This document shows, one piece after another, positions 25,138 to 29,724 of a stretch of 33,506 nt of DNA. Position 1 is the first letter of the stretch, and each line of letters opens with the position of its first letter. A program made the position numbers and the translations under genes. The notes under the pieces were generated by a model. It did not search any database. It worked only from the letters and a program-made list of their open reading frames with translations, and was not told the origin of the DNA. Source of the DNA: Betaproteobacteria bacterium. GTDB lineage: Bacteria > Pseudomonadota > Gammaproteobacteria > Burkholderiales > Rhodocyclaceae. Location: contig SHNC01000214.1 of NCBI GenBank assembly GCA_004295105.1, positions 1 through 33,506 of the forward strand, given 5' to 3'.

Positions 25138-26565
25138 TCAGTGAGCGGCCGCAGGCGCGAGCACCGGCGCGTTGTAGGCCTTCTCACCCGCGATGGTCTT
25201 CACCATGTTGTAGAACATGAGGACCATGCCGGTCAGGAACAGCACGCCACCGATGAAGCGGATCGTCCAGAACGGATAGCTCGCCTTCACGCTCTCGACG
25301 AAGGAGTAGGTCAGCGTGCCGTCCGGGTTGGTGGCGCGCCACATCAGGCCCTGCATCACGCCGGCGATCCACATCGAGGCGATGTAGAGCACGACGCCGA
25401 TGGTGGCGACCCAGAAGTGGGCGTTGACCAGCTTGACGCTGTACATCTCGGCCTTGCCGTAGAGGCGCGGCAGCAGGAAGTAGATCGAGCCGATCGACAC
25501 CATCGCCACCCAGCCCAGCGCGCCGGAGTGCACGTGCCCCACCGTCCAGTCGGTGTAGTGCGACAGCGCGTTGACCGTCTTCACCGACATCATCGGACCC
25601 TCGAAGGTCGACATGCCGTAGAAGGACAGCGATGTGATCAGGAACTTCAGGATCGGATCGGTGCGCAGCTTGTGCCAGGCGCCGGACAGCGTCATGACGC
25701 CGTTGATCATGCCACCCCAGGACGGCGCCAGCAGGATCAGCGAGAAGACCATGCCCACCGACTGGGTCCAGTCGGGCAGCGCGGTGTAGTGCAGGTGGTG
25801 CGGGCCGGCCCACATGTAGGTGAAGATCAGCGCCCAGAAGTGCACCACCGACAGGCGATAGGAATAGACGGGACGTTCGGCCTGCTTCGGCACGAAGTAG
25901 TACATCATGCCCAGGAAGCCGGCGGTCAGGAAGAAACCGACCGCGTTGTGGCCGTACCACCACTGAATCATGGCGTCCTGCACGCCGGCATAGGCCGAGT
26001 AGGACTTCATGCTGTTCATCGAGACCGGGATGGCCGCGCTATTGACGATGTGCAGCAGCGCCACCGTCAGGATGAAGGCGCCGAAGAACCAGTTCGCGAC
26101 ATAGATGTGCGACACCTTGCGCTTGGCGATGGTGCCGAAGAACACGATCGCATAGGACACCCACACGACGGCAATCAGCAGGTCGATCGGCCACTCGAGT
26201 TCGGCGTATTCCTTGCCCGACGTGTAGCCCAGTGGCAGGGTGATCGCAGCGAGGATGATGACCACCTGCCAGCCCCAGAAGGTGAAGGCCGCGAGGCCCG
26301 GCGCAAAAAGCCGGGTATGGCAGGTGCGCTGCACGACGTAGTACGACGTCGCGAACAATGCACAGCCGCCGAAGGCGAAGATCACCGCGTTGGTGTGAAG
26401 CGGACGGAGCCTGCCGAAATGCAGGAATTCGTGTACGTTCAGTTCAGGCCACACGAGCTGTGCCGCGGCGATGACACCGACCAGCATGCCCACGATGCCC
26501 CACACCACCGTCATGATGGAGAACTGCCGCACGACTTTATAGTTATAAGTCGCTTGCGATTGCAT
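25138..26565 (-). CDS. ccoN: cbb3 cytochrome c oxidase subunit I
   Basis: The 475-residue catalytic subunit reduces O2 at a haem b3-CuB centre with very high affinity and pumps protons. Twelve membrane helices are visible. Haem and copper histidines lie in [25 protein letters not shown] and [10 protein letters not shown]. It begins [15 protein letters not shown] 26565 has GAGG eight bases upstream and is preferred over an in-frame GTG three codons earlier. It heads the ccoNOQP operon and is driven by a textbook FNR promoter (26646-26686). Confidence 0.98.
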
Positions 26566-26645: not shown

Positions 26646-26686
26646 AGGATACCGTTGGTCCGGGCCCACAATTTGATACAGATCAA
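26646..26686 (-). promoter_or_regulatory. Class II FNR promoter of ccoNOQP
   Basis: A perfect TTGAT-ACAG-ATCAA box (26673-26686) is followed on the minus strand after 21 bp by -10 TATCCT (26646-26651). The predicted start is near 26638, placing the box centre near -41 and giving a leader of about 70 nt. Confidence 0.92.
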
Positions 26687-26813: not shown

Positions 26814-26842
26814 AAAAAAAAAGGGTGCGTCTGCACGCACCC
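26814..26842 (-). terminator. Strong intrinsic terminator
   Basis: On the minus strand GGGTGCGT-GCAG-ACGCACCC, a perfect 8-bp GC-rich stem with a tetraloop, is followed by nine Ts (complement of 26814-26822). It ends transcripts coming from ccoS and from the promoter at 26922-26962, and insulates ccoN. Confidence 0.95.
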
Positions 26843-26915
26843 CCAACCCCAACAGAGAGACAAACGTTTCCGGCCCCTGCCGCCAGACCCTGGCACCTGC
26901 CAGAACCGGAACCAC
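26814..26915 (-). ncRNA. Candidate FNR-induced small RNA between ccoS and ccoN
   Basis: A complete small transcription unit of about 101 nt is visible: FNR box, -10 CATAAT, predicted start near 26914, and an intrinsic terminator with nine Us. No start codon with a ribosome site and no plausible ORF lie within. The RNA can form a 5' stem: GUUCCGG pairs with CCGGAAAC around an inner hairpin CUGGC-AGGU-GCCAG (26890-26903). A single-stranded CU-rich stretch containing UCUCUCU (about 26853-26859) follows, then the terminator stem. This order (structured 5' end, open pyrimidine-rich seed, terminator with U tail) is typical of Hfq-type base-pairing RNAs. Functional parallels are E. coli FnrS and neisserial AniS, both FNR-activated; no sequence relation is claimed. 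An alternative is a remnant promoter whose product is only a terminated leader. Confidence 0.65.
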
Positions 26916-26921
26916 GGGCGA

Positions 26922-26962
26922 ATTATGCCGACCTGCCCGGAAAAGGTATTGACCTAGATCAA
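26922..26962 (-). promoter_or_regulatory. Orphan class II FNR promoter
   Basis: TTGAT-CTAG-GTCAA on the minus strand (26949-26962; one base off ideal) is followed after 21 bp by CATAAT (26922-26927). The 21-bp distance equals that in the ccoN promoter. No coding gene follows before the terminator at 26814-26842, so the promoter appears to serve the candidate small RNA. Confidence 0.85.
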
Positions 26963-27015: not shown

Positions 27016-27219
27016 TCAGGCATCCCTTTCCCCGGCGCGCTGCTCGCCGTCCTTCGGGGTGTCCCTCGCAGGAAGTTCGTCGCGGTCGTCGAGCAGCAGG
27101 CGGTACGCGGGGCCTTCGAGATCGTCGTACTGGCCGTTGCGCAGCGACCACCAGAACAGCAGGCCGATGATGAAGACCAGGATGACCGAGATCGGGATCA
27201 GCAGGTAAAGGCTTTCCAT
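27016..27219 (-). CDS. ccoS: cbb3 oxidase maturation protein CcoS
   Basis: The 67-residue protein has a single N-terminal membrane helix (ESLYLLIPISVILVFIIGLLFWWSL) and the CcoS hallmark RNGQYDDLEGPAYRLLLDD. CcoS is needed for haem and copper insertion into CcoN. It starts nine bases after the ccoI stop and is cotranscribed with it. Its C-terminal tail is charged and variable. Confidence 0.95.
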   Translation of the reverse strand: MESLYLLIPISVILVFIIGLLFWWSLRNGQYDDLEGPAYRLLLDDRDELPARDTPKDGEQRAGERDA

Positions 27220-27228
27220 GTTCGTCCT

Positions 27229-29724
27229 TCAGCGGCCGCCCTGCAGTCGCATCGCGTTCAGTACCACCAGCAGCGAGCTGGCCGCCATGCCGATTCCGGC
27301 CATCCACGGCGTGACCAGGCCGGCCATCGCCAGCGGCACCGACGTAAAGTTGTAGGCGAACGACCACCACAGATTCTGCCGGATGATGCGCAGCGCCTTG
27401 CGCGACACGGTGATCCCCCTCCCCAGGCTGGCCAGGTTCTCGTTCAGCAGGACGATGTCGGCCTGGTTGCGCGCGAGGTCGGTGCCACCACCCATCGCGA
27501 CCGACACATGAGCCTGCGCCAGCACCGGCGCGTCATTGACGCCATCTCCCACCATCGCCACCACCGCGAGCGGATCCTTCTGCAGCATGGCGATGTGTGC
27601 CTGTTTGCCCTGTGGCGTGAGGCCACCATGAGCATCGGCAATTCGCAGCGCGCCAGCGACCGCAGCGACCACGGCAGGCGAATCTCCGGACAGCACCGTC
27701 GTGCCGATGCCGTCTGCCGAAAGCTGGGCCACAAAGGGTGCCGCCTCGACGCGCGCCACGTCGGCGAGGCGGAACAAGGCGAGCCAGCCCTCGCGCGCGC
27801 CCAGCGCGACTACCGTGCCGCCGCGCCGCTCGAATTCCTCCAGGGCGTCTGGTATCGCCACCTGCGCGCGCGCTGCGACGAAATCGGGCCGGCCGATCCA
27901 CACGGTGCGCCCGGCGACTTCCCCTGCCATGCCCTGCCCGGTTTCGGCCTGCAATGCGCGCACCGCGGGCAGCGCCAGGCCGGCCGCAGCCTCGCGCAGG
28001 CCGGCCGCGACCGGGTGCTCCGAGCCCTGCTCGAGGGCCGCCGCAAGGGCCAGTGCCGCTTCGGGCGAGAGCTCGCCGAGCGGCCTCGCTTCCTCAAGCT
28101 TCATGCGCCCGTAGGTCAGGGTGCCGGTCTTGTCGAGCACGACATGGTTCGTCCGCGCCAGCGTCTCGATCGCATGCCCTCGGGTCACCAGCACACCCAT
28201 GCGCGCAAGCGCATCGGTCGCCACCGTCAGCGCGGTCGGCGTCGCCAGCGACAGGGCGCACGGACAGGCCACGACCAGCACCGAGACGAAGACCCACAGC
28301 GCGCGCTGCGGGTCGATGAAGTACCACGCGATGCCGGTCAGGCCGGCCAGCGCGAGCAGCACGATGATGAAGGCCACCGCGACGCGGTCGGCAACGGTGG
28401 CCACCCGCGGCTTGTCGGTGGCGGCGCGCTCCATCAGGCGGCGGATCGCGGCGAGCCGCGTCGCATCGCCGACCTGCTCGACCTGGAACACCAGCGGGCT
28501 GGACACGTTGATGCTGCCTCCGGTGAGTATCCCGCCGACCCCCTTGGGCACCGGACGGCTCTCGCCGGTCAGCAGCGCCTCATTGACCTCGCCCGTGCCG
28601 GCGATCACCACGCCATCCGCCGCGATGGTCTCCCCCGGCCGCACGCGCAGCACGTCGCCGGGCGCGAGGTGTGACACCGGCACGCGCTCGCCGTCCTGGG
28701 AAGGCCACGCGGCGAGGCGTTCAGCGAAGGCTGGCAGCACCTTGCCGAGTTCTTCCACCCCGCGCACCGCCTTCTGGCGCGCGACCATCTCGAGGTAGCG
28801 GCCTCCGAGCAGGAAGAACACGAACATCGTCACCGAGTCGAAATAGACCTCGGGACCATGCGTGAGCGTGGCCCACAGGCTGGCGAGGAAGGCGCTGCCC
28901 ACGCCCAGCGCGACCGGCACGTCCATGCCCAGACGGCGCAGTTTCACGTCGCGCCAGGCGCGCTGGAAGAAGGGCGCGGCCGAATACAGAACCACCGGCA
29001 GGGTGAGCAGCAGGCTCGCCCAGCGCAGCAGCAGTTCGATGTCCCAGGTCATGTCGCCCTCGCCCGCCACATACACGGGGAACGCATACATCATGACCTG
29101 CATCATGCCGAAGCCGGCGACGAACACTCGCCACAGCATGGAGCGCCGCTCCCGGTGGGCGACCTGCTCGGAGCGCTCGGCGTCGTAGGGATAGGCGCGG
29201 TAGCCGATCGCCTGCACCGCCGCCAGGATGTCCGACAGCTTGATGCGGCGCTCGTCCCAGCGCACCCGCGCCCGGCGCGTGGCGTAGTTGATCTGGATCG
29301 CAGACACCCCCGGCTGGCGCGCGACATGCTGCTCGTTGAGCCAGACGCAGGCGGCGCAGGTGATGCCCTCGAGGATCAGCGAGGCTTCGCGCTCGTGCTC
29401 GCCCACCGGGCGCACGAAGCTCTTCTGGAAGTCGGGGTGATCGAACAGACCGAGTTCCTGCAGTTCGGTCGGCAGGGCCTCGCGGCGCGTTTCGGGCATC
29501 GCGTCGCGGTGGCGGTAGTAGTCGATCAGGCCGTTATCGACGATGGACTGCGCCACCGCCTCGCAGCCGACACAGCACATGCGCCGATCGCGGCCATCGA
29601 TGCGAACGTAATGATGGCTGTCGCGCGGAATCGGAAGCCCGCAGTGATAGCAGTCGATATCGGTCGTCGCCCCCTCGCGGACGGGATCGGCGGCTTCGGC
29701 GGGCGGCAGTTCGGCTGAGTTCAT
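27229..29724 (-). CDS. ccoI: CcoI/FixI copper-transporting P-type ATPase for cbb3 assembly
   Basis: The 831-residue P1B-type ATPase exports Cu to the periplasm for the CuB centre of CcoN rather than for detoxification. An N-terminal cysteine-rich metal-binding region (CYHCGLPIP, MCCVGC) precedes an HMA domain (GITCAACVWL). Eight membrane helices, TGES, the CPC motif (VVACPCALSLATPTAL), DKTGTLTYG, SEHPVAAG and GDGVNDAPV follow. The last helices carry AYNFTSVP and ASSLLVVLNAMRL. The extra N-terminal Cys region separates CcoI from the CopA at 11.7 kb. It begins the ccoI-ccoS unit; a perfect hairpin lies in its leader. Confidence 0.96.
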   Translation of the reverse strand: MNSAELPPAEAADPVREGATTDIDCYHCGLPIPRDSHHYVRIDGRDRRMCCVGCEAVAQSIVDNGLIDYYRHRDAMPETRREALPTELQELGLFDHPDFQKSFVRPVGEHEREASLILEGITCAACVWLNEQHVARQPGVSAIQINYATRRARVRWDERRIKLSDILAAVQAIGYRAYPYDAERSEQVAHRERRSMLWRVFVAGFGMMQVMMYAFPVYVAGEGDMTWDIELLLRWASLLLTLPVVLYSAAPFFQRAWRDVKLRRLGMDVPVALGVGSAFLASLWATLTHGPEVYFDSVTMFVFFLLGGRYLEMVARQKAVRGVEELGKVLPAFAERLAAWPSQDGERVPVSHLAPGDVLRVRPGETIAADGVVIAGTGEVNEALLTGESRPVPKGVGGILTGGSINVSSPLVFQVEQVGDATRLAAIRRLMERAATDKPRVATVADRVAVAFIIVLLALAGLTGIAWYFIDPQRALWVFVSVLVVACPCALSLATPTALTVATDALARMGVLVTRGHAIETLARTNHVVLDKTGTLTYGRMKLEEARPLGELSPEAALALAAALEQGSEHPVAAGLREAAAGLALPAVRALQAETGQGMAGEVAGRTVWIGRPDFVAARAQVAIPDALEEFERRGGTVVALGAREGWLALFRLADVARVEAAPFVAQLSADGIGTTVLSGDSPAVVAAVAGALRIADAHGGLTPQGKQAHIAMLQKDPLAVVAMVGDGVNDAPVLAQAHVSVAMGGGTDLARNQADIVLLNENLASLGRGITVSRKALRIIRQNLWWSFAYNFTSVPLAMAGLVTPWMAGIGMAASSLLVVLNAMRLQGGR

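Follow-up and report, generated by a model that had tools for sequence, protein, structure and literature searches.

The window analysed here, a 33,506-nt stretch from a genome of the family Rhodocyclaceae, carries cco genes on its minus strand in the order ccoI, ccoS, spacer, ccoN. The names ccoS and ccoI are those which we take to follow from gene position and from the type of sequence. The spacer contains a predicted RNA gene, and its features and neighbours, given in the direction of transcription, are the following:

27229–29724, minus strand: ccoI, open reading frame upstream of ccoS, used for synteny
27016–27219, minus strand: ccoS, translation of 67 aa, upstream neighbour of the RNA gene
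26949–26962, minus strand: FNR box TTGATCTAGGTCAA, identified in the sequence, centred at about −41 from the predicted start
26922–26927, minus strand: −10 hexamer CATAAT, identified in the sequence, 21 bp from the FNR box
26814–26915, minus strand: predicted small RNA of about 100 nt, from sequence and promoter geometry
26868–26911, minus strand: 5′ stem-loop from the predicted fold, conserved as a fold and not in sequence
26841–26858, minus strand: seed UCUCUGUUGGGGUUGGGG (DNA TCTCTGTTGGGGTTGGGG), unpaired CU/G-rich stretch directly before the terminator
26814–26842, minus strand: intrinsic terminator, stem-loop 26823–26842 and T9 26814–26822
26673–26686, minus strand: separate FNR box of the ccoN promoter, TTGATCTGTATCAA, identified in the sequence
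26646–26651, minus strand: −10 hexamer TATCCT of the ccoN promoter, 21 bp from its FNR box
25138–26565, minus strand: ccoN, open reading frame, downstream neighbour, used to find relatives

The first-pass annotation of this DNA proposed an FNR-activated small RNA between ccoS and ccoN, with an FNR box one base off ideal and a CATAAT hexamer at the spacing of the ccoN promoter. Indeed, the box TTGATCTAGGTCAA differs at a single base from TTGATNNNNATCAA, and the distance of 21 bp between box and −10 hexamer is identical at both promoters, the FNR box of ccoN lying about 130 bp beyond the small RNA terminator. A spacing of 21–22 bp corresponds to class II geometry. With the RNA start placed 7 nt after the −10 hexamer by inference, the predicted RNA gene has the FNR box of its own promoter at about −41.

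Conservation of the RNA gene

A BLAST search of 199 genomes of the family (E 0.001, a 176-base region as query) detected the 3′ part of the RNA in 149 genomes, representing 53 of 68 genera. Among the matches listed, most span approximately query positions 112–161, i.e., the terminator together with the stretch leading into it. Six of the 50 BLAST-negative genomes were added by R1, a covariance model of the core, bringing the total to 155 of 199; three of the six have a canonical core (G111, G021, and G128) and three a variant one (G097, G116, and G018), and all six cores adjoin ccoN. In the scan of 51 genomes with R1, 26 matched at E 0.001, scores of at least 39 bits being reached only by the window and these six, and the remaining matches in those genomes had 27 bits or less and were mostly bare terminators.

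We examined 100 loci, one or more per genus rather than all 149 (L001–L039, L044, and L111–L170), and kept 96 of them after the removal of L036, L038, L151, and L152, which have no real core; in this set at least two genomes are present twice under different names. In 90 of the 96 loci ccoN follows 167–435 nt downstream of the core on the same strand, and in one (L009) the contig ends before any ccoN. In the other five (L111, L132, L140, L142, and L159) no ccoN follows, ccoI being still upstream in three, which indicates that the RNA gene can stand alone. A full 8/8 FNR half-site pair is present upstream of the core in 93 of the 96 loci, and the best −10 hexamer, chosen over distances of 15–28 bp, is 21–22 bp from the FNR box in 86 of 92. 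A further FNR-like box (7/8 or better), located between the terminator and the start of ccoN, belongs to ccoN itself in 85 of 90 loci. Locus L137 (G041) combines a canonical core and a downstream ccoN with no FNR-like box in the 200 bases upstream.

In two loci, L126 (G028) and L146 (G063), the RNA core is located at most about 15 nt after a gene named by eye as OmpW-like and is not preceded by its own 8/8 FNR box; here the RNA looks like one that has turned into a 3′-UTR product.

The decisive evidence that the RNA gene is more than a product of chance is the conservation of its core, promoter, and terminator in relatives. Comparative genomics in this way backs the first-pass reading of the element as a putative FNR-activated non-coding RNA gene, the box, the spacing, the terminator, and the CU-rich stretch being kept in about 53 genera. 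Conservation of the box, −10 hexamer, and stems in close relatives, a check which that annotation had itself named, was likewise observed.

By BLAST and the covariance model, the RNA was not found in 44 of the 199 family genomes, some of which are incomplete. A CcoN protein is encoded by 33 of these 44 (E 1e-50), and the region upstream of ccoN was without the core in all 30 of their readable loci. Degenerate or diverged sequences bearing a terminator occupy the same place in G051 (L234), G178 (L244), and G055 (L230). In the wider order, 187 of 399 genomes, some of them of the same family, match R1. The order-wide matches listed from outside the family are mostly bare terminators (model positions 29–55) or have low full-length scores, and a canonical core is present among them only in G369 (L207) and G388 (L210), in both cases between ccoI and ccoN. 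As these two genomes are assigned to other families, either transfer or wrong binning may be involved. The match in G265 (39.5 bits), in whose vicinity cco genes and FNR boxes are missing, was counted as chance; G018 and G116 have similar scores but adjoin ccoN. Locus L217 (G236, family f39), where CCCCTGTTGGGGTTAGGG precedes a terminator (29.6 bits), is a candidate far relative, with no match to ccoN or ccoI nearby.

Structure of the predicted RNA

The description of a nested 5′ stem-loop and an open CU-rich stretch, given in the first-pass annotation, holds, and the latter is conserved in loci from about 53 genera. The two parts differ in their mode of conservation. No sequence is common to the 5′ parts of relatives, whose length ranges from 0 to 141 nt, the predicted transcripts having a median length of 97 nt (range 40–182, n = 89). 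In genus g41 (L136 and L166) the FNR box is only 48 nt before the core, so the predicted RNA of this genus comprises little beyond seed and terminator. The 106-nt RNA of the window has a predicted folding energy of −45 kcal/mol, which 9 of 200 shuffles equal (z −1.74); taken by itself this is unremarkable and modest evidence. The 5′ parts of relatives fold better than shuffled ones, with a mean z of −2.03 (n = 88 predicted, mononucleotide shuffles).

The first 14 nt of the seed, UCUCUGUUGGGGUU (26845–26858), are invariant across 48 aligned cores chosen from 89 distinct cores, and the seed is altered in the three variant genomes G097, G116, and G018. Its last two bases overlap the terminator stem. 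The terminator with nine Us, which the first-pass annotation had also noted, consists of a stem at 26842–26823 followed by T9. A 2.5-kb stretch yielded three terminator-like sites, this one included, where 1.4 are expected, which by itself is likewise modest evidence. The stem covaries in relatives: over 93 sequences, 98.0% of its cells are paired, five of eight pairs have changed on both sides, and double changes occur in 47 cells vs. a shuffled mean of 3.2, a covariation count that leans towards structure because the model was built from part of the same sequences. In slid versions of the stem, pairing drops to 73.3% or less.

Predicted targets of the seed

Complements of the seed near ATG codons were searched in 198 genomes, with a dinucleotide-identical pattern as control. 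The seed complement gave 45 hits, among them 13 antisense to the RNA gene and one site that was counted twice, vs. 46 hits of the control. As test and control are equal in this respect, raw counts show no enrichment, and we rejected them as a proof of targeting. Inspection by eye assigned about 20 of the 31 test sites outside the small RNA and about 13 of the 46 control hits to real gene starts (14 vs. 8 with a Shine-Dalgarno core), in a comparison that is post hoc and not independent of phylogeny. An automatic gene-start filter favoured the control (11 test vs. 16 control). Several test sites have 16–20 nt of unbroken complement. A 10-mer variant also matches gene starts, assigned by eye, in genomes without the RNA: aceE in G013, pckG in G105, and ftsH in G178. 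Seed-complement patterns alone are thus suggestive at best as evidence of targets. The genes downstream of the test sites, named by Pfam, by NCBIfam (several matches partial or below cut-off), or by eye, include the following:

Cu/Zn superoxide dismutase, sodC (G073, G121), site at the start
DsrC/TusE-like protein (G010, G073, G117)
DsrE-like proteins (including G101 and G015)
4-hydroxyphenylpyruvate dioxygenase, hppD (three genomes of one genus, including G154)
2-oxoglutarate dehydrogenase E1, sucA (two genomes of one genus, including G088)
ErpA (G048)
peroxiredoxin (G083, G129)
thiol peroxidase, tpx (G135)
cytochrome bd subunit I, cydA (G026)
aconitase B, acnB (G101)
flavohemoprotein (G094)
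oxygenase reductase (two genomes of one genus)
flavin reductase, beside a likely oxygenase reductase (the window's own genome)

Sites at ProA, allantoicase, a metallophosphoesterase, and YceI fit no theme.

The dsrC family was selected because three of its members (G010, G073, and G117) were pattern hits. Homologs of dsrC (E 1e-12) are present in 50 of 198 genomes, and none was found at this threshold in the window's own genome; the leaders of the best 30 loci were compared with the seed. For 23 orthologs that are independent of the pattern search and come from RNA-bearing genomes of nine genera, duplex energies average −32.1, vs. −19.3 (sd 2.4) for dinucleotide-shuffled seeds, none of 300 being as good as the real seed. 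Individually, all except the g26 ortholog (22 of 23) outperform 95% or more of the shuffles. The dsrC orthologs of three RNA-less genomes pair more weakly (−18.9, −21.0, and −23.4), their mean as a group being −21.1 vs. −16.6 for shuffles, with 2 of 300 as good. The site is located at the Shine-Dalgarno sequence, varies by C to U with G-U pairs retained, and is seen in about nine genera when the pattern-found ortholog of G041 (g42) is counted. In the ten loci inspected, dsrC is apart from its neighbours, which vary among genera. Results of our analysis strongly predict this stand-alone dsrC/tusE-like gene of sulfur relay as the best-supported target, and in its case the conserved, unpaired seed is complementary to a predicted mRNA start region.

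Many dsrC leaders (L430–L458) are preceded by a palindrome (approximately GACTAAAATAGTC) which we take to be similar to the type 1 IscR site, hinting at possible joint Fe-S and oxygen control.

Outside dsrC, the predicted sites are lineage-specific. Strong duplexes at start codons were obtained for sodC of G073 (−40.3), the dsrE-like gene of G101 (−39.4), tpx of G135 (−36.9), the peroxiredoxin gene of G083 (−36.1), a wrbA-like gene of G033 (−35.2), and cydA of G026 (−34.8), with none of 200 shuffled seeds as good in each of the six cases. Because such sites were found via a complement search, their duplex energies are not an independent test. Weak sites, with the number of equally good shuffles of 200, are those of hppD in G154 (18), the dsrE-like gene of G015 (10), sucA in G088 (9), the flavohemoprotein gene (8), and the flavin reductase gene (5), the one predicted target among the hits listed for the window's own genome and a weak one. 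We rejected sodC as a universal target: among 49 orthologs only those of G073 and G121 (g11), both pattern-found, pair strongly. L378 and L371 rank next among 30 orthologs, being matched by 6 and 9 of 200 shuffles, respectively, and in a further 19 the best is that of G043 (1 of 200), the ortholog of the window's own genome having 9 of 200.

Pairing in cis with the cco genes was rejected as well. RNAduplex, applied to 10 kb of the window and to eight loci (5.8–9.4 kb), gave nothing stronger than sites of about −20 to −26 kcal/mol. At this background energy, two coding positions are found repeatedly, as would be expected for conserved coding sequence: about +1215 in ccoN, in 5 of 9, and about +2720, in 4 of 9. 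The two roles suggested in the first-pass annotation fared differently. Dampening of aerobic functions gains from the predicted Shine-Dalgarno targets, strongly in the case of dsrC/tusE and in single lineages in the case of sodC, peroxiredoxin, tpx, sucA, acnB, and cydA. Balancing of oxidase assembly found no support, the pairing sites within the cco locus staying at background energy.

Alternative explanations, related RNAs, and proposed function

The position of the RNA gene directly upstream of ccoN, on the same strand in 90 of the 96 loci, would also suit a cis element of the cbb3 operon, namely an FNR-driven leader with a terminator attenuating read-through into ccoN. We regard it as very unlikely, since in most loci ccoN has an FNR-like box of its own downstream of that terminator, it does not follow the RNA gene in five loci, and the cco locus offers only background pairing. 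Moreover, the invariant part is a single-stranded seed and not an alternative antiterminator, and the predicted RNA of g41 hardly exceeds seed and terminator. That the element follows ccoS and ends in a terminator could mean that it merely terminates the ccoIS operon, or acts as a site at the level of DNA, and that the promoter matches arose by chance; yet an 8/8 FNR pair is expected by chance in about 0.3% of 187-position stretches (uniform bases) and is seen in 93 of 96, and an invariant 14-mer before a covarying stem is unnecessary for termination, which makes this explanation scarcely credible.

The probability that the transcript is a short mRNA for a small protein appears close to negligible. 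Open reading frames do cross the region mechanically, and a closed one of at least 10 aa is present in 17 of 89 distinct predicted transcripts, 12 of the 17 with a Shine-Dalgarno-like stretch; the other 72, however, have none, and the 5′ part varies from nothing to 141 nt. The absence of a coding gene stated in the first-pass annotation can be upheld to this extent, and the predicted RNA gene appears as a non-coding one that ends at an intrinsic terminator. An FNR-induced RNA whose invariant stretch serves to bind or titrate a protein (or a different RNA), instead of pairing with mRNAs, would account for a seed that is almost constant although most predicted mRNA targets are unconserved between genera. 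This is unlikely in view of the dsrC leaders, which retain long complementarity to the seed over about nine genera.

We consider it probable that the gene encodes a stand-alone, FNR-activated, trans-acting small RNA, presumably Hfq-dependent, that masks Shine-Dalgarno regions and has dsrC as its clearest target. Rfam holds an FnrS model. At gathering scores, Rfam 15 gave no family in the window or in seven relative loci, and, with E values up to 10 admitted, FnrS did not appear among the matches of the region. With a relaxed threshold, the models of SorY (RF02651), AniS (RF02274), and SorX (RF02784) align over their full length far below their cut-offs: 20.1 bits vs. 111, 16.1 vs. 50, and 14.3 vs. 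46.6, respectively, so that by this test the RNA is not a member of the AniS family, and the scores of SorY and SorX likewise fall short. SorY and SorX are RNAs of Rhodobacter. They have in common with the RNA described here the motif CUGUUGG just 5′ of a GC-rich terminator (window 26823–26858), which may reflect chance, convergence, or distant kinship, but they are named for singlet oxygen resistance and not for low oxygen.

AniS of Neisseria meningitidis, the counterpart of FnrS of N. gonorrhoeae, is described as made at low oxygen, Hfq-dependent, and FNR-controlled (PMC4176332). Its length and layout are similar to those of the RNA in the window, which its model aligns end to end, but the aligned seed region differs. 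FnrS of Escherichia coli is reported to be FNR-regulated and to lower at least 32 mRNAs, with sodB among its targets (PMC10993149). In its FNR activation the RNA proposed here would be alike, and its predicted targets sodC, peroxiredoxin, tpx, sucA, acnB, and cydA are of similar flavour. The position of its seed, adjoining the terminator, differs from that in FnrS, and its best target is dsrC. The RNA would work like FnrS or AniS, but Rfam scores do not make it a member of either. The HRC-8-4 motif of Rhodobacterales, described as conserved, non-coding, and located mostly between ccoP and ccoG (PMC8632094), is comparable in the first two respects and in lying within a cbb3 locus; going by that description, it is set apart by bacterial class and by its position in the locus. 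Among the papers listed by searches of the open-licence PMC literature, we found no report of this RNA. A study of FNR motifs in ‘Ca. Accumulibacter’ is reported to have covered only regions upstream of protein-coding genes (PMC6446978).

The mechanism that we propose is built on conservation, promoter architecture, terminator covariation, and complementary sites, all of them apparent in the sequences. At low oxygen, FNR bound at about −41 would activate transcription of the RNA gene alongside the neighbouring ccoNOQP, which has its own FNR promoter. The resulting RNA of about 100 nt would end at the strong intrinsic terminator. Its unpaired UCUCUGUUGGGGUUGGGG would pair with mRNAs from other loci at their C-rich Shine-Dalgarno regions, probably with Hfq as the platform, the gene for which the window's own genome contains. 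Such pairing would block translation of the targets, repression rather than activation being inferred because the sites overlap the Shine-Dalgarno sequence. In single lineages, further targets would come from oxygen defence and the TCA cycle, or else from oxygen-dependent catabolism or alternative respiration. Owing to the names of the targets and the parallel with FnrS, the physiological role may be to lower oxygen defence, aerobic functions, and sulfur relay while cbb3 is made.

In a wider interpretation, which we offer tentatively as possible and somewhat short of an even chance, this would be the family's own oxygen-responsive small RNA, unrelated to FnrS and AniS as far as Rfam models go, which is linked to cbb3 by synteny but acts in trans, a single near-invariant seed serving many start regions. 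The leader of the stand-alone dsrC/tusE-like gene, its anchor target, would have co-evolved with the seed. At low oxygen a sulfur-relay protein would then be silenced and, depending on the lineage, also TCA enzymes, the defence against peroxide and superoxide, and even the competing bd oxidase.

Denitrifiers and wastewater bacteria of ecological and technical importance belong to this family and would share an oxygen-responsive RNA regulator that we found in none of the Rfam families. If this is true, an FnrS-like layer of regulation has evolved independently, FNR is linked to a DsrC-type sulfur relay, and the RNA exemplifies clearly how a seed can stay almost frozen while its targets change.
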